From Candidatus Fermentithermobacillaceae bacterium (GTDB lineage Bacteria > Bacillota > Sulfobacillia > Fermentithermobacillales > Fermentithermobacillaceae): DNA of 64,000 bases. Numbering within the stretch: position 1 is the first letter of the stretch; each line of letters starts with the position of its first letter. Position numbers and translations under genes: made by a program. This document shows positions 10,224 to 63,966 of the stretch, one piece after another. The notes beneath the pieces are model-generated. The model did no database searches and was not told where the DNA came from. It worked only from the letters and a program-made list of their open reading frames with translations. The stretch is from the NCBI GenBank assembly GCA_012842685.1, contig DUSI01000049.1, positions 1-64,000 of the forward strand. Reading direction: 5' to 3'.

Positions 10224-10306
10224 ACGATTCTCCCCCCAGAGATGAGACAAGCCTCCCAGCACCAAAGCCGAGAGGCAAGGAAATCCAAAATTATTACCGC
10301 CCTCTT

Positions 10307-10406
10307 CGGTAACCCGGCTATCATGGCGACTCTCTATCTATCGTCGCTTTAGACCCGTGGCTTTGCGTCACTGCCTTTCGGACAGTTTTGCCTTTATCGG
10401 TGCGCG
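10307..10406 (-). promoter_or_regulatory. Cyclic-di-GMP class I (GEMM-I) riboswitch in the flgB leader
   Basis: Read on the minus strand, this stretch carries the conserved GEMM-I elements in order. These are AAAGGCAAAACTGTC (c-di-GMP-binding 5' side), a CGAAAG tetraloop (plus 10375-10380), the core GACGCAAAGCCACGGG (plus 10354-10369) with GTCTAAAG, a variable stem, and TAGCCGGGTTACCG (plus 10307-10320). The aptamer ends about 85 bases before the flgB start. Class I c-di-GMP aptamers are known upstream of flagellar operons in Clostridia, where they turn transcription off. The downstream segment has a possible GCCTC/GAGGC stem but no U-run, so whether control is by termination or by hiding the ribosome-binding site is unclear. 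The rest of 10224-10559 holds only the codY terminator. Confidence 0.88.
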
Positions 10407-55980: not shown

Positions 55981-56154
55981 GTGTACCGGAAAGGCATAGC
56001 TGTGTGCCTGCTTGTAATCTTTGTTGCGATGGATCACCAGTTTGCCGGTGAGATCCAGAGCCACTTTTTCTCACATGCGGTCTCGCGCCGGTTCTCAGCG
56101 AGGCTCACTGCAAGTCGCCACAAGGGCCTGCCACACCGCGTCCGAGTCGGTTAG
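55981..56154 (+). CDS. Possible small secreted or membrane peptide (57 residues), doubtful
   Basis: GGAGGTGA lies five bases before the GTG at 55981. The product starts with a signal-like or membrane segment (RKGIAVCLLVIFVAMDHQFA). The rest is polar and has no recognisable features. The last 60 bases run antisense to the end of the unknown gene at 56095-57246. The strong ribosome site is the only real support; it might be a remnant of a lost gene. Confidence 0.25.
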   Translation: MYRKGIAVCLLVIFVAMDHQFAGEIQSHFFSHAVSRRFSARLTASRHKGLPHRVRVG

Positions 56155-57246
56155 CATGTAGATACCGTTAAAGCGAGGCTTTTCCCGTCTGATGCTGGCC
56201 AAGATGGATTTCTTGGGGACAAGAGGCTCGCCTACCCGCACGAAAGAGGGAGTCCGCTTGAGCAGACCATCCTCCATCGCCCACAAGAAAAGAAGCCCCA
56301 GGAGCACGGAATAGCTCATCTCCAGATAGTCGCCCGGTCCTTCTAGATAGGAGTACCGTCCAGTCTTCCACAGTTCGACCACTTCACTTAAGCACTTCGA
56401 AGCCCCATCTGCCACTTTCGCAATCGCCGAACGGAGGGCCGGAAGGCAGGAAAGCACAGACGACCCTGGCAGCAGGTCTACGTTGAGGCGCGCCTGGCCG
56501 CGCCTCAGGTGGAGTTTGGACGCGTCTATGAATTCAAGGAGTTCAAGCGACCAGGAAGTGAGTCCCCCCATGAGGACGTTGAGTTCTTCGTCAGACGTCC
56601 TTAGGAGCCAGCCCGAATAGGGGTTTTCCAGTATCGGGAGGATCTTGGAGTACTCTCCATAAGCACCTCCCCATGGGACGCAGAGCCTCATGCCCTTCCC
56701 CGCGACGAGTGCGCTGACCCTGGAAAAAGTCCCGCCAATGTGGACGCCGAGGGCGAAAACGGCTCCAATCTTCTGCTGCGGCGTCCTCATATCCCAGATA
56801 CCTATCTTTTTCTCCCTTTCTCTCATGGAGAGAACAAGAAGCGTCTGAGCCGCAAGGAGCATCCCGTCTGCCCCGCACGCGACTTCGCGGGCTGCTTCTT
56901 TCAGGAACGCCGCGAAATCCGGGTAGATACTCTCCCTGGCAGGCTCGTAGACCCTTAGGATCCTCTCTGCCTCCGCCTCATCGAGGAACGGAAACAGGGG
57001 TCTTGCCGCATCGGTTCCAGCGGCCGCCAGCCCAGGGATGGGGTCCTTCCATTCTCCTTTGTAGAGCGGTTCAAAGTTGCCCTGATCCAGGAGGTTATCC
57101 GGCCACTCCCCAAAACGGTCGAGTATGTCTCTCGCGCTGACGAAGTTCGTGCAAAGCCGCCACGTGGTAAGGGCGTCTTCTCTAATGGGGTGGTCTATCT
57201 CGGGGCGCAGGGCCGAATAGTCTATACCGCTACCGGCTATACCCAT
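56095..57246 (-). CDS. Unrecognised protein, third gene of the GlmL-like operon
   Basis: The 383-residue protein has no motif I know. It has no signal peptide and no clear membrane helix, although LEMSYSVLLGLLFLWAMEDG is hydrophobic. It has blocks that look structured and possibly conserved: KKIGIWDMRTPQQKIGAVFA, LGVHIGGTFSRVSALVAGKG and LCVPWGGAYGEYSKILPILE. The ATG at 57244-57246 overlaps the upstream stop (TGATG), so it is translated together with the two preceding genes. Composition is like that of its neighbours. Its role must relate to the ASKHA ATPase and barrel-sandwich protein of the same operon, but the function is unknown. Confidence 0.8.
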   Translation of the reverse strand: MGIAGSGIDYSALRPEIDHPIREDALTTWRLCTNFVSARDILDRFGEWPDNLLDQGNFEPLYKGEWKDPIPGLAAAGTDAARPLFPFLDEAEAERILRVYEPARESIYPDFAAFLKEAAREVACGADGMLLAAQTLLVLSMREREKKIGIWDMRTPQQKIGAVFALGVHIGGTFSRVSALVAGKGMRLCVPWGGAYGEYSKILPILENPYSGWLLRTSDEELNVLMGGLTSWSLELLEFIDASKLHLRRGQARLNVDLLPGSSVLSCLPALRSAIAKVADGASKCLSEVVELWKTGRYSYLEGPGDYLEMSYSVLLGLLFLWAMEDGLLKRTPSFVRVGEPLVPKKSILASIRREKPRFNGIYMLTDSDAVWQALVATCSEPR

Positions 57247-58346
57247 CAGGAAGCCCCCTCTCCGGGCGTCGAATGGAGGATGACCTCAGGGCGGATTACC
57301 CCGGCCCGAATGTGGGTAACCCCCCGTATAGACACCGTATCTCCCTCGAACTTCGCGAGGGCGGAAAACACTTCTTCTCGGATCGGACACGGGTGAAACC
57401 CTTCCATGACCACTATCGGGAAGGGTACGTCCTCATCTCCGGTGATGCCGAGGTTCGCGTGCTCGCCGACTAGAGAGAGGACGGTCTCGGAGGGCATATA
57501 CCCCATGATGGTACCCGCGACCCCTGCGGCAGCGGCCGCCATGAGCGCCTCGTGAGACGCCGTCCCTCTGACTGCGAGGATCGAGCCTGGCTCCAGGTCC
57601 ATGCCGGGGTGAAGATCGCCGCAGATCACGCGGAGACGTCCGAAAGCCTCCCCGCCGAGCCCCCAGAGGCCCTCCAGCCTTATCCCCCGGCCCTGTACCT
57701 CGACGCCCTTGTCCGGCATGACCGCCGTGACCCTCCCCCTGATATACGCCTTCACGTCAGGCGAGGGAAACGCGGGGACGATGGTTATGGTCCCTCTTTC
57801 CAGGTCGATCTCCTTTACTCTCCCGTAGAGCGGAGACCTCACCGTCTTATGCCTCGGCAGGTTCCTGTCTATCGCAGCGAGAACCTGCCCCTTTGCCACA
57901 AGGGAGCCTTCTCTTATGTCCTCGGCTTTCGCGTACCTGAGTTCCCCCGGCACAACTCCCAGCTGTTTGGCGGCTTCGATGGTCACCGGTCCGGTAAGCT
58001 CACCCAAGTCCACTATCTCGCGGATATACACGTTGCCGAGAGTCCTTGATACGGCCGAAACCACGCCGGAGACTGGACTCCTCACGGCCCGCCGGTCGAA
58101 GAACTCGGCCCTGGCCGCCAGCGTATCCCCGGTCTTGACATGGTCGCCTACCTTCTTGATCAGACGGGTGGGAAGATCCGTCGGGTGGATGCCGAGGGTC
58201 GAGGCGGCGTCAACCTTGCCCATCCTGCCCGGCAGCGCTTCGATCTTGGCGACAACCGTGTCAGGCTCCACGCGCTCCCCAGACCGCACCAGGATGCGGG
58301 CCGCCGCAGGGATCTGGCGGAAATACGTTAGGGACTCCGCTTTCAT
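57246..58346 (-). CDS. Predicted barrel-sandwich-hybrid (lipoyl/RnfC-like) protein, second gene of the GlmL-like operon
   Basis: The 366-residue protein has two or more stretches with the beta pattern of lipoyl/biotinyl or RnfC-like barrel-sandwich folds: VKTGDTLAARAEFFDRRAVR with SPVSGVVSAV, and EGSLVAKGQVLAAIDRNLPR with SPLYGRVKEI. No MKM/Lys lipoylation motif is obvious. The C-terminal half has Gly-rich AVRGTASHEALMAAAAAGVA and a PCPIREEVFSALAKFEGD segment, unlike known families to me. The ATG overlaps the upstream stop (ATGA) and its stop overlaps the next start. Cytoplasmic, by absence of signals. A scaffold or cofactor-handling role is speculation. Confidence 0.7.
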   Translation of the reverse strand: MKAESLTYFRQIPAAARILVRSGERVEPDTVVAKIEALPGRMGKVDAASTLGIHPTDLPTRLIKKVGDHVKTGDTLAARAEFFDRRAVRSPVSGVVSAVSRTLGNVYIREIVDLGELTGPVTIEAAKQLGVVPGELRYAKAEDIREGSLVAKGQVLAAIDRNLPRHKTVRSPLYGRVKEIDLERGTITIVPAFPSPDVKAYIRGRVTAVMPDKGVEVQGRGIRLEGLWGLGGEAFGRLRVICGDLHPGMDLEPGSILAVRGTASHEALMAAAAAGVAGTIMGYMPSETVLSLVGEHANLGITGDEDVPFPIVVMEGFHPCPIREEVFSALAKFEGDTVSIRGVTHIRAGVIRPEVILHSTPGEGAS

Positions 58347-60160
58347 TCCCGGTCACCTCGCTTTCCAGGCGGATTCGCGATATCGTAAGCGCCGATCTGC
58401 GCCGCCCATTTGGCGTTGAGCCGCGCCCGTTCGTCCGGGTCATCGGGCAGGACGATGGGCCGTCCCCTCGCATCCACTATGATTCCAACGGTCCCTCCTG
58501 TGGTCTCGAACTCAAGCCGCCTCGTCCCCCTGAAGGCGGTCTGCCCCAGGGTTTCCACCTCAACCTTGGCCCTCTCTCCCTGGGCCAAGGGGATGACCCT
58601 TATGTCCCCAGAGTGGACCAGCGCCGTAAGCCTATCTCCTCGCAACGTAACGCTCACAGAGACCGCAGGCTCTCCGGCAGGCCCAACAACACCGGGCGCA
58701 ATCACCGGACCCAGAGGCACCAGACAGTCCGTTTCAAGGACGTTCAGGGCGGCTTCAGGGTCAAGGCTTGAGAGCACTCCCAGGTGAGGCATCATGAAGA
58801 CGCTGTCCACGGCTAGGAACGTCCGGCCTTCAGGCTGAAGCGCGTTAAGAAGCATGAAGGCAGCCTGGTTCCGCCTCGGGGCGTGGGAAAGGGCCCCTCC
58901 CGAACCTATAAAGAGTCCTATATTGGAGATATCTATGGCCCCGGTTGGGCGCCTGAAGTTCTCCATCCTGGCTTCGGCGAAAAAGCGCGTGGAAGTGAAA
59001 GAGGACTCACTCGGGAGTAATACCGCCACTTCTTTATGCTGGCCAAACGCGAGCCTTATGGCCTCGGTGGCCAGTGCCTGCTCGATCTGAAGGTCTTCTT
59101 GGGTCTCGGGAAGAGACGTCGGGTGGATGAGTTTTGTGAGGATCCTGTCCGCCACGCGGTAAGGGGACATGTTGAACGGCAGCCACCTGACTATGTCTTG
59201 GAGCCCCGCCTCCACGAGTACGTTGCCCGCAGAGTAGCTCATACCTAGATTAGCGCTCACAGAACGGAAGAACGTGCCATCGATTACCGAAAAAACGTCG
59301 GTGGTCGCGCCGCCTATGTCTATCCCTAAGATGTTCGCACCTCGTCTCTCGGCCACGAGCTCCATGATGCGCCCGACAGCTGCAGGCGTGGGCAGTATGT
59401 CTTCGTCGACCCACGAGCTTAGCACACCGTATCCCGGCGCCTGCTGCATCACGTGGGACATGAAGAGCTCGTGGATGGCTTTCCTCGCGGGCCCGAGGAC
59501 TTCTCTCTCCAGGGTAGGCCGCAAGTTGTCGACGACGGTGAGGTCGTAATGGTCCGATAGGGTATCTCTCACGGTCTCGGCGGCGTCTTTATTCCCCGCG
59601 TATATCACCGGGATGCGAAAATCACTGCCGAAACGAGGGCTGGGTTTGGCGGCGTTGAGGATATCGCATACCTCCAGGACGTAACTCACGTTGCCGCCGT
59701 CTAAGCCTCCGGCTATGAGGACCATGTCGGGCCTGCAGTTTCGCACGGCATCCATCTTGACGAAACCTTGCCTGCCGTCGTCGGTGGCCATCACGTCCAG
59801 GATAATCGCACCGCCTCCGAGGGCCGCCCTGCGGGCGCTATCGGCAGTAACGCTCTTCGTAAGACCGTAGACGAGTATCTGCAGGCCGCCACCCGCGCTG
59901 GACGTCGAGAGGTACCTGTACTGCCTGTGAGTCGCTTCGCCCGCAGGCCTGCATATCTCGGTAACCAGCGAGATGCCGGCCAGCTCTTCCAACTCCCTGA
60001 GAGCGTTGACCACCCCAACCGTAACGTCTTCGAAAGGCTTTTCCACGGTGGTTGGAGCTGCGGCCCTTCCGAGAAGCCGCGCTTCCTTGCCTTCCGGGCC
60101 GATAAGCAGGGCCTTCGTGGTGGTACTTCCGACGTCGGTAATCACGTACCCTCGGAGCAT
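58343..60160 (-). CDS. GlmL/MutL-like ASKHA-fold ATPase, extended form
   Basis: The 605-residue protein carries three ASKHA signatures: phosphate-1 YVITDVGSTTTKALLIG, phosphate-2 ILGIDIGGATTDVFSVI, and adenosine-type FIGSGGALSHAP. The layout matches GlmL/MutL, a family encoded beside B12-dependent glutamate mutase and thought to reactivate it. No mutase subunit lies in this window. The C-terminal about 130 residues (VSVTLRGDRLTALVHSGDIR; TTGGTVGIIVDARGRPIV) are beta-rich and extend beyond the typical family length. ATG 60158-60160 follows GGGAGG. It leads a coupled operon with a barrel-sandwich protein and an unknown. Upstream is the 31-bp repeat array. Confidence 0.85.
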   Translation of the reverse strand: MLRGYVITDVGSTTTKALLIGPEGKEARLLGRAAAPTTVEKPFEDVTVGVVNALRELEELAGISLVTEICRPAGEATHRQYRYLSTSSAGGGLQILVYGLTKSVTADSARRAALGGGAIILDVMATDDGRQGFVKMDAVRNCRPDMVLIAGGLDGGNVSYVLEVCDILNAAKPSPRFGSDFRIPVIYAGNKDAAETVRDTLSDHYDLTVVDNLRPTLEREVLGPARKAIHELFMSHVMQQAPGYGVLSSWVDEDILPTPAAVGRIMELVAERRGANILGIDIGGATTDVFSVIDGTFFRSVSANLGMSYSAGNVLVEAGLQDIVRWLPFNMSPYRVADRILTKLIHPTSLPETQEDLQIEQALATEAIRLAFGQHKEVAVLLPSESSFTSTRFFAEARMENFRRPTGAIDISNIGLFIGSGGALSHAPRRNQAAFMLLNALQPEGRTFLAVDSVFMMPHLGVLSSLDPEAALNVLETDCLVPLGPVIAPGVVGPAGEPAVSVSVTLRGDRLTALVHSGDIRVIPLAQGERAKVEVETLGQTAFRGTRRLEFETTGGTVGIIVDARGRPIVLPDDPDERARLNAKWAAQIGAYDIANPPGKRGDRE

Positions 60161-60519
60161 GGCATCGCCTCCCGCCAGTCATGTTTGGGCGACGGTTCCA
60201 GACAGACTTGGATCCAGTCCCGGCGCGGCGTGGAGGCCGCCAAGCCGGCACGTCCGGAGTACTCAGTCAGATGGTGCGATGCGGACTGCAGCTAATACGC
60301 TTTCATTTTTCGGAGTATTCGTATCGCGGGTTGCTGATTCCTTCCGAAGGCGGATAAGCCGGCGCTTCGCCACCTGCGGTCCGCCATCCAGCTCGGGTCT
60401 ATGTCCGCTATATATCAGAGCTCCTGAGCCCGCTTCGACAATCCCCAGGCATAGGACGATGCGACGCACTGTGTTCCAGTGGCAGATCCCATCCACCGGT
60501 CTTGGAGGATCAGGCGACA
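60161..60519. other. Leader and intergenic region of the GlmL-like operon
   Basis: Open frames here are shadows with no homology or ribosome sites. I see no clear housekeeping promoter or riboswitch. The GlmL-like ribosome site is at 60168-60173. The 31-bp repeats start near the far end. Confidence 0.5.
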
Positions 60520-60880
60520 AGACCGGATGGTCGTTCCCGAAGTGCCGAAATAAGCCGCCGGATGACACCGGACCGTCGGATCAGGTAGTATGGTCCTTCC
60601 ATATAGGCACACCAGACCGAACGATGGTTTCCGATAGGCCGACGAGATCCGCTGGTCGTCTCTTGCGGGCCGGAAAAATCCGACGGTCGTCTTTCACGGG
60701 CCGGAGAAGTCCGATGCTAGTCTCAAATGAACCGATAAGACCGACCGATCAATGGGCACGATCGGAAACGATCGGATGGTCGGCTCTCAAAGGCCGGCCA
60801 GACCGGTCAATCGTAAGGAATAGGCCGCTGAAATCCGATGGTTATTGAAGAACGGCCGGAAAGACCGGATAATCCCGGCG
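60520..60880. repeat. Block 1 of a degenerate 31-bp tandem repeat (about 12 units)
   Basis: A core near GATGGTC recurs at about 60526, 60561, 60589, 60623, 60651, 60682, 60713, 60744, 60775, 60806, 60837 and 60868, i.e. every 31 bases with small slips early on. A typical unit is GGGCCGGAAAAATCCGACGG followed by TCGTCTTTCAC. The approximate consensus is CCGGAAAAACCGGATGGTC plus about 10 variable bases. Thirty-one is not a multiple of three, so the periodicity is not a protein repeat. No unit is identical to another, so the array is old or under weak constraint. Confidence 0.85.
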
Positions 60881-61100
60881 GAATTCAGGCAAGATGGGTG
60901 TTAGCGTTCTCCGAGGGCGTACCGGAGGTTGGAGAACCCAGGCGTAAGCCGGCCCCGACGTAGGTTAACCTTTTCAACACCGGCATCCTTTCTTACGTAC
61001 CAAGTTGCTTGTGAGAACCTGCCTACCTCATTTCACCCTTGCGTCGCTTAGTCCCTCACGGAGCTCTCGGGAGAAGGCGTTCCGGCTACCACACATCGTT
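60881..61100. other. Spacer between the two 31-bp repeat blocks
   Basis: About 220 bp without the 31-base periodicity. It contains a 7-bp inverted repeat GTTCTCC (60906-60912) and GGAGAAC (60931-60937). The blocks on either side are not in phase (240 bp between adjacent cores, not a multiple of 31). I see no gene here. Confidence 0.6.
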
Positions 61101-61490
61101 CAGACCGGTGGGTTGTCCTCGATGTGGCGGTTAGACCCGACGGTTGTCATAGAAGATTCGACCTTGTCGGACAGTCGTAGCGGACACGGCGGTGTGACCG
61201 GATGATCGCTTCGACCATTGCGGAAATATCGGATGATCGTTTCGAACATGGCGGAAATAATCGTATGGTCACACCGGATAAGCCGACAAAACCGAATGGT
61301 TCATCCAAGAACGCGGAGAAAACCGGACAGTCATACCCGACGGGCCGAAAAAACCGGATGGTCATCACTGAAGCACCCACGAAATCCGATGATTGACTGG
61401 TATAAAAGGGTCTAATCGGACGGTTATCCGGAAGAACCCGGGCAAACCCGACGGTCGCTTCTCACCGCACCTGAGAAGTCTGGTCTTATC
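61101..61490. repeat. Block 2 of the degenerate 31-bp tandem repeat (about 12-13 units)
   Basis: Cores related to GATGGTC recur at 61108, 61139, 61170, 61201, 61232, 61263, 61294, 61326, 61357, 61388, 61419 and 61450, with spacing 31 (once 32). The best-kept part is AAAACCGGATGGTC with a GCCGA/GCGGA just before. The orientation and consensus match block 1. A weak further unit may lie near 61480. The last units approach the end of the aminotransferase gene on the other strand. Confidence 0.88.
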
Positions 61491-63339: not shown

Positions 63340-63966
63340 TTATTTGATGAGGTGCAGGGTATCCCTAAAGATGATCGTAAGCTGTCCAATGATTAGCGAC
63401 AGGTACGCCATGGTGATAGAACCGTAGGCGGAACCGAAAGCCACCATCAAGGCGTAACGGCCGAACCTGGAGCCGTAGTACAGAACTCCTTTGTCTTTCT
63501 TGAGAGTAAACGCGAAGTACATAAGCGTTGAGACGACTACCAGGAAGTACAGTATGTTGTTGAAGCTCTTCGCGAAGTCTCCCGCCCTCAGGTTGATGAA
63601 GCTGTCGGTCACCTGTGTGAGAAACACGGGAGGGCTGTAGGCCAGGCTGTATCCCGCTCCGTAACCTATCCAGAAGCCCATGGTGATGCGGGCAATCCAT
63701 TCTTGGCCCTTGACGAAGGAGAAGTATATGAGGAGCCCCAAGATGGCTCCGAATATATACCCCCACTTACCTCTCCCGATTATGTCCTGGACAATGCGCG
63801 GCACGATCTGGTTTTGTATCGTGTAGACTATGCCGTATGCTGTCGCAGACCCCACTAGGAAGTGCTCCACTGCGGTATAGACCGGGTTATCGCCCTTTAC
63901 CAGATAGGACCACGCGGCCAGGATGCTCAAGGTCTTAAAGATGAAGCTCCACTGCTCCACGCTCAC
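63340..63966 (-). CDS. Polytopic membrane protein, unrecognised
   Basis: The 208-residue protein has about six hydrophobic helices, for example VEHFLVGSATAYGIVYTIQN, WGYIFGAILGLLIYFSFVKG, ITMGFWIGYGAGYSLAYSPP and ILYFLVVVSTLMYFAFTLKK. I do not know the family. It has many Gly and Tyr residues in membrane segments, as channel or transporter subunits often have. The GTG at 63964-63966 follows GGAGGGAGGG. A TAG just upstream (63982-63984) may end another gene outside the window. It is in line with the pseudogene and aminotransferase and may belong to the same locus as the GlmL-like operon. Confidence 0.8.
   Translation of the reverse strand: MSVEQWSFIFKTLSILAAWSYLVKGDNPVYTAVEHFLVGSATAYGIVYTIQNQIVPRIVQDIIGRGKWGYIFGAILGLLIYFSFVKGQEWIARITMGFWIGYGAGYSLAYSPPVFLTQVTDSFINLRAGDFAKSFNNILYFLVVVSTLMYFAFTLKKDKGVLYYGSRFGRYALMVAFGSAYGSITMAYLSLIIGQLTIIFRDTLHLIK

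Follow-up and report, generated by a model that had tools for sequence, protein, structure and literature searches.

A MutL-type ATPase–barrel-sandwich gene pair of Fermentithermobacillaceae and its genetic link to a DUF6754 membrane module

The stretch of DNA considered here—the window—comprises positions 1 to 64,000 of contig DUSI01000049.1 of Candidatus Fermentithermobacillaceae bacterium (assembly GCA_012842685.1; genome size 1.89 Mb, 66 contigs). It carries three coupled genes, the trio, coding for a MutL-type ASKHA ATPase (MutL_A), a barrel-sandwich-hybrid (BSH) protein (BSH_A), and an orphan protein (P3). The trio is probably a lineage-specific duplicate of a widespread MutL-BSH module that works and is inherited together with a four-protein membrane complex, DUF6754-x208-m283-m208; the pair would be an ATP-driven activator and P3 a subunit particular to this clade. 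A preliminary description, made from the sequence of the window, had tentatively placed the trio in the frame of coenzyme B12 enzyme reactivation. In the labels below, G denotes a genome (G000, the source genome), C a contig (C48, the window contig), and L a locus; gene calls in relatives derive from open reading frames and profiles.

Linkage of the MutL-BSH pair to the membrane module

The genetic link of MutL-BSH to the DUF6754 module is strong. Among 299 Bacillota genomes, BSH (presence threshold E < 1e-20) is found in 23 and DUF6754 in 24; both occur in 22, BSH only in 1, DUF6754 only in 2, and neither in 274 (Fisher p = 5e-30). For the 151 Armatimonadota genomes, the counts are 127 with both, 8 with BSH only, 2 with DUF6754 only, and 14 with neither—that is, 135 with BSH and 129 with DUF6754 (p = 2e-12)—and the p-values of both samples ignore shared ancestry. 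Copy numbers of BSH and DUF6754, tallied by hand, correlate modestly (Spearman 0.54).

Gene order features the same link. One same-strand array of Eisenbacteria (L160) runs E215-E147-MutL-BSH-DUF6754-x208-m283-m208, and two Nitrospira loci (L165 and L168) carry this array minus E215. The module comes first in Bacillota loci L065, L089, L091, L097, L100, and L103, which read DUF6754-x208-m283-m208-MutL-BSH, all on one strand. A Latescibacterota contig reads MutL-BSH-DUF6754-x208-m283-m208, with 1.3 kb separating MutL from BSH, and on a Bdellovibrionales contig, the MutL-BSH half and the membrane half face each other. The pair and the module are often joined by two further small genes, E147 and E215, of which E215 has two membrane segments. 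The source genome has both features by which the proposed system is recognized, namely, a MutL beside a BSH gene and a DUF6754-x208-m283-m208 module in the same genome. As a client of MutL-BSH, the DUF6754 module is better supported than a B12 mutase. The link appears to be undescribed; no paper on DUF6754 and none on the MutL/BSH combination was found in the open-access literature.

The DUF6754 membrane module

The module recurs in the gene order DUF6754-x208-m283-m208. On the window contig, it consists of m208, m283, x208, and DUF6754 (to 66297); beyond it, MutL_B and BSH_B are encoded on the opposite strand. A profile search revealed seven DUF6754 genes in the source genome. Four of the six sites besides the window contig carry at least three module members, a fifth has m283 and m208 beside DUF6754 near a contig end, and the sixth has no partner called, in a count where the gene caller may miss members under long spurious open reading frames. 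For DUF6754 and m283, hydropathy points to a soluble domain flanked by a single membrane segment at either terminus, and for x208 and m208 to polytopic proteins. The positive-inside rule suggests a cytoplasmic location for the DUF6754 domain and an external one for that of m283. Profile comparison of the membrane proteins with P3, BSH, and MutL gave no sequence similarity.

Some DUF6754 modules stand alone (L189, L192, L194, L195, L196, L197, and L198) and adjoin genes resembling those of peptide and amino-acid catabolism—by appearance, indolepyruvate oxidoreductase-like, M20 peptidase-like, D-aminoacylase-like, and TldD-like genes, of which the first three kinds recur among the neighbors.

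The MutL-BSH pair

The source genome contains six MutL genes, one short (447 residues) and five long (574–630 residues), and all five long ones have a BSH gene directly after them (pairs A to E, Table 1). Of 44 BSH loci sampled in Bacillota, 41 have MutL immediately upstream in the same orientation; in the named scan, the two genes are neighbors in the same orientation at 74 of 92 BSH loci. It is the MutL-BSH pair, not the trio, that forms the widely conserved unit. The preliminary description had made joint conservation of the genes decisive, and they do stay together: the pair across the sampled phylum, the trio in the genus and its clade. At least 573 BSH loci came out of the named scan. 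Among the 80 retained are loci from Cloacimonadota, Fermentibacterota, Armatimonadota, Nitrospira, Poribacteria, Latescibacterota, and Bathyarchaeota, all from metagenome-assembled genomes, where the phylum of any single contig may be wrong. In Armatimonadota, BSH is usually a single gene and has the appearance of a core gene in this phylum.

Two of the pairs have neighborhoods of their own. MutL_D (L009:2129-3853 = G000:C34:42129-43853) is long but degenerate, with the phosphate-2 and adenosine motifs lost; its cluster holds ATP-binding cassette (ABC)/FtsX genes and a second, intact MutL-BSH pair. MutL_D and its intact neighbor may form a pseudo-ATPase/ATPase pairing, and such a possible pairing is also present in other Fermentithermobacillaceae (L107 and L112). 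Type-E pairs lie near the tRNA t6A (N6-threonylcarbamoyladenosine) genes TsaE/TsaB/RimI/TsaD in several Bacillota genomes (L091, L071, and L010).

The trio and its proteins

The three genes form a start-stop coupled set, as the preliminary description had it: the MutL_A/BSH_A junction (GAATGAAAG) is a 4-base ATGA overlap and the BSH_A/P3 junction (TCCTGATGGG) a 1-base TGATG overlap, both on the minus strand. The other three genomes of the genus carry the same trio in the same order, at identities of 83–84% for MutL, 73–75% for BSH, and 65–67% for P3, so the arrangement is not due to chance.

MutL_A was rightly taken for a GlmL/MutL-type ASKHA ATPase: it matches Pfam PF13941 at E = 1.4e-112, and the nucleotide motifs DVGSTTTK, DIGGATTD, and GSGG are all intact. 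The extra tail ascribed to it is equally real and has no family match. The protein stays below all three curated NCBIfam cut-offs of the GlmL family (219 versus 475, 209 versus 600, and 173 versus 204 bits) and is 34% identical to the canonical short copy of the same genome. The latter, flanked by the genes for ornithine aminomutase E and ornithine racemase, reaches 617 bits against the Or-4 cut-off of 600. In a tree of 71 MutL sequences—built by a quick method with Shimodaira–Hasegawa-like approximate likelihood ratio test (SH-aLRT) support only—14 short and 57 long sequences are split with 100% support. MutL_A falls into a 98%-supported clade of eight, which holds all P3-bearing loci on the tree (L056, L059, L061, L062, L077, and L079) as well as L095, a member without detected P3.

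BSH_A is the barrel-sandwich protein that had been predicted, with matches to RnfC_N (PF13375, 2e-9), biotin_lipoyl (2e-6), and NqrA_N (PF05896, 2e-5). Only the N-terminal barrel-sandwich part matches, and the RnfC/NqrA equivalogs score 13–22 bits against cut-offs of 246–450. The structural model (predicted local distance difference test score, pLDDT, 87; predicted template modeling score, pTM, 0.65) features a barrel-sandwich/β-barrel region followed by an α/β swivel-like domain at about 250–358; some of its fold matches in the PDB are RraA and phosphoenolpyruvate-utilizer swivel domains, a weak, suggestive resemblance. Matches to RNA polymerase β′ were read as common barrel-sandwich motifs rather than as function. 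The other BSH paralogues carry a C-terminal extension with KOW/NusG-like similarity. The biotin-type lysine motif (A/M/V/E)MK(M/A/...) is absent in all five paralogues, lipoyl-type DKA variants not having been searched separately. This lack speaks against a biotin carrier and makes a binding adaptor the likelier role for BSH; the adaptor role proposed for it in the preliminary description is thus probable.

P3 remains the unrecognized protein it was described as, with no match in Pfam or NCBIfam. It is soluble, and its compact fold is predicted confidently (pLDDT 84, pTM 0.86). The model has no match below E = 1 in the PDB and no significant match in a viral fold library, and a search against plasmids returned nothing. 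The source genome has a single copy. P3 stands third after BSH in all four genus members, two of which carry a second, more divergent P3-bearing trio, and again in G004 (same family) and G015, which belongs to a different family of the order. In G029, G121, G160, and one Clostridia contig, BSH is followed by weaker relatives of P3. Most MutL-BSH pairs are without P3. Since the P3-bearing loci placed on the tree all fall into the MutL_A clade, P3 is a clade-specific third gene.

Proposed mechanism and its weighing

We infer a physical complex, its direction of action, a role for P3, and a function of the membrane complex as follows. BSH would bind the ATPase via the extra C-terminal tail of MutL and dock it on the client; the MutL clamp, opening and closing at the expense of ATP, would then activate, energize, or remodel the DUF6754-x208-m283-m208 complex, and P3, as an additional subunit, would confer client specificity on this clade of pairs. 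Going by gene neighbors only, one might guess that the complex transports a peptide or amino-acid-type substrate.

MutL-BSH with its membrane complex is apparently a large, undescribed gene system, bacterial and in part archaeal. More tentatively, it may constitute a new ATP-driven membrane machine, made of a MutL-type ASKHA ATPase, a barrel-sandwich adaptor, and a DUF6754-x208-m283-m208 base. As judged by BSH, such a machine would be near-universal in Armatimonadota and patchy elsewhere, Bathyarchaeota contigs included, with about seven modules and five pairs in the source genome; P3, whose fold is unmatched, would be a subunit specific to one paralogue. We know of no mechanism in which an ASKHA ATPase drives a membrane complex of this kind. 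If the proposal holds, MutL/GlmL Pfam members that may be labeled mutase accessory proteins would be unrelated to mutases in many phyla. Because the proposed eight-gene system (MutL, BSH, DUF6754, x208, m283, m208, E147, and E215) has strong phylogenetic dependence and BSH is so widespread in Armatimonadota, its function could be tested by one knock-out or complex purification.

Several observations weigh against the assignment of the trio to the membrane module. The trio is not in an operon with the DUF6754 module, since a distance of 3 kb with a repeat array and an aminotransferase gene separates the two, and the module is absent within the approximately 6–8 kb seen around the trio in sister species. 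Because the two are not co-transcribed, the assignment of the trio draws on homology and on dependence at the level of whole genomes. A number of the membrane modules stand alone, and most sampled Armatimonadota contigs have BSH without an adjacent MutL, the search for MutL not having extended to the rest of these genomes. Pairs C and D are instead part of an FtsX/MacB-like ABC cluster. Finally, in a count confined to BSH-bearing genomes, 20 of the 23 BSH-positive Bacillota genomes carry the lysine/ornithine aminomutase family PF09043; this co-presence might reflect a common amino-acid-fermenting niche or a link to B12.

Alternative explanations

The MutL-BSH pairs might instead be generic ASKHA-chaperone modules whose clients differ—the membrane module for pairs B and E, an ABC exporter for pairs C and D—with P3 as the actual client and not a cofactor of the trio. 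Such a role would fit the ABC/FtsX genes flanked by pairs C and D, the P3 gene adjacent to type A throughout the genus, and a degenerate MutL_D without ATP motifs, yet it is unlikely: taken alone, it leaves the genome-level dependence of BSH on DUF6754 unexplained.

More doubtful still is an ATP-dependent metabolic enzyme resembling hydantoinase/oxoprolinase or the activators of acyl-CoA reductases, where MutL_A would phosphorylate or activate the substrate, BSH would act as a swinging or scaffold domain, and P3 would be catalytic in amino-acid or peptide catabolism. MutL_A is weakly similar to Hydantoinase_A and BcrAD_BadFG, P3 is soluble and predicted to fold compactly, and the neighbors include peptidase M24, a class-V aminotransferase, an amidohydrolase, and MatC. 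However, no BSH has the biotin/lipoyl lysine, P3, which most pairs lack, belongs to no recognizable catalytic family, and the linkage across phyla leads to membrane genes rather than to one pathway.

The B12 frame of the preliminary description survives least well. In it, the trio would reactivate an adenosylcobalamin-dependent mutase encoded elsewhere, MutL_A expelling damaged cobalamin with ATP and BSH and P3 serving as adaptors. The genome does contain six B12-binding genes, among them candidate clients for a Pfam MutL family member with full ASKHA motifs. A short GlmL (Or-4, above cut-off) lies beside ornithine 4,5-aminomutase (OraE), KamC lies beside lysine 5,6-aminomutase, and a 406-residue KamB-like gene follows a 607-residue B12 protein; a 149-residue methylmalonyl-CoA mutase C-terminal-domain protein also occurs. 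As judged from sequence, each aminomutase-type gene found has its own reactivase-like neighbor, in a comparison that leaves out the 149-residue protein and two of the six B12-binding genes. No recognizable mutase adjoins the five pairs or lies in those trio loci of relatives that were examined, in agreement with the lack of a mutase partner noted at the outset. The GlmE-type gene that the preliminary description had proposed to look for elsewhere was not found in a PF06368 search of the genome, and no cobalamin riboswitch was detected, either within the window or in the surroundings of the other pairs. PF09043 is missing from 3 of the 23 BSH-positive Bacillota genomes and from 11 of the 15 BSH-bearing genomes reached through named loci. 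With the long MutLs a separate clade below the GlmL cut-offs, the aminomutases already provided for, and the strong co-occurrence lying with DUF6754, reactivation of a B12 mutase is the most improbable of these explanations.

Two observations on B12 proteins stand apart. The 607-residue protein (L233:8806-11903, G000:C62) features an N-terminal B12-binding domain and weak similarity to lysine-5,6-aminomutase β, and together with the KamB-like gene, it may represent a B12 mutase not yet described and a reactivase of its own. B12-domain proteins near BSH in Armatimonadota (L143 and L163; methylmalonyl-CoA-mutase-type and corrinoid-type by appearance) were judged to be unrelated neighbors.

The PADLOC models of anti-phage defense gave no match for six proteins.

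Features of the window and source genome

The coordinates of the trio, the five pairs, and the window-contig module are collected in Table 1. Between the trio and the aminotransferase gene, at 60493-61465 of the window, lies a degenerate repeat array of 31-base periodicity, with start-to-start spacings of 31, 62, 93, 124/125, and approximately 280; it is not CRISPR-like in appearance. Similar-looking repetitive stretches occur near C34:17.7-19 kb.

Table 1. Location of the trio, the MutL-BSH pairs, the membrane module of the window contig, and a riboswitch
Feature	Position	Strand	Description
MutL_A	58343-60160	minus	605 residues; Pfam MutL domain at residues 5-479; C-terminal tail of ~125 residues
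BSH_A	57246-58346	minus	366 residues; barrel-sandwich-hybrid protein
P3	56095-57246	minus	383 residues; orphan protein, clade-specific third gene
Pair A	window 57246-60160	minus	MutL_A-BSH_A
Pair B	C48:66601-69913	opposite to neighboring membrane module	MutL_B-BSH_B
Pair C	C34:50142-53366		MutL-BSH
Pair D	C34:42129-45073		MutL-BSH
Pair E	C17:55453-58475		MutL-BSH
m208	63340-63966	minus	polytopic membrane protein; last module gene, within the window, 3 kb upstream of the trio
m283	C48:63982-64833		member of the window-contig module
DUF6754 (PF20539)	C48:65476-66297		first gene of the window-contig module, past the window end
c-di-GMP-I riboswitch	window 10305-10402	minus	RF01051, 82 bits

Comparison with known systems

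GlmL and Or-4 (PF13941, TIGR01319) are accessory or reactivation proteins of glutamate and ornithine mutases. MutL_A shares with them the ASKHA family and the DxGSTTT, DxGGATTD, and GSGG-type motifs but differs in its sub-cut-off scores, the tail of about 125 residues, the BSH partner, the separate clade, and the lack of a mutase neighbor.

The KamB/KamC reactivase of lysine 5,6-aminomutase is likewise a two-component ATPase for a B12 enzyme, and both kinds of gene occur in this genome. KamC, however, is MutS-like, not ASKHA, and stands beside its own mutase, and the KamB-like gene stands beside a different B12 protein.

BSH matches the N-terminal domain of RnfC/NqrA, without a carrier lysine motif; it adds a swivel-like domain and does not reach the equivalog cut-offs. 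For DUF6754, the family PF20539 is only a domain-of-unknown-function label; here, it heads a module that co-occurs with BSH.

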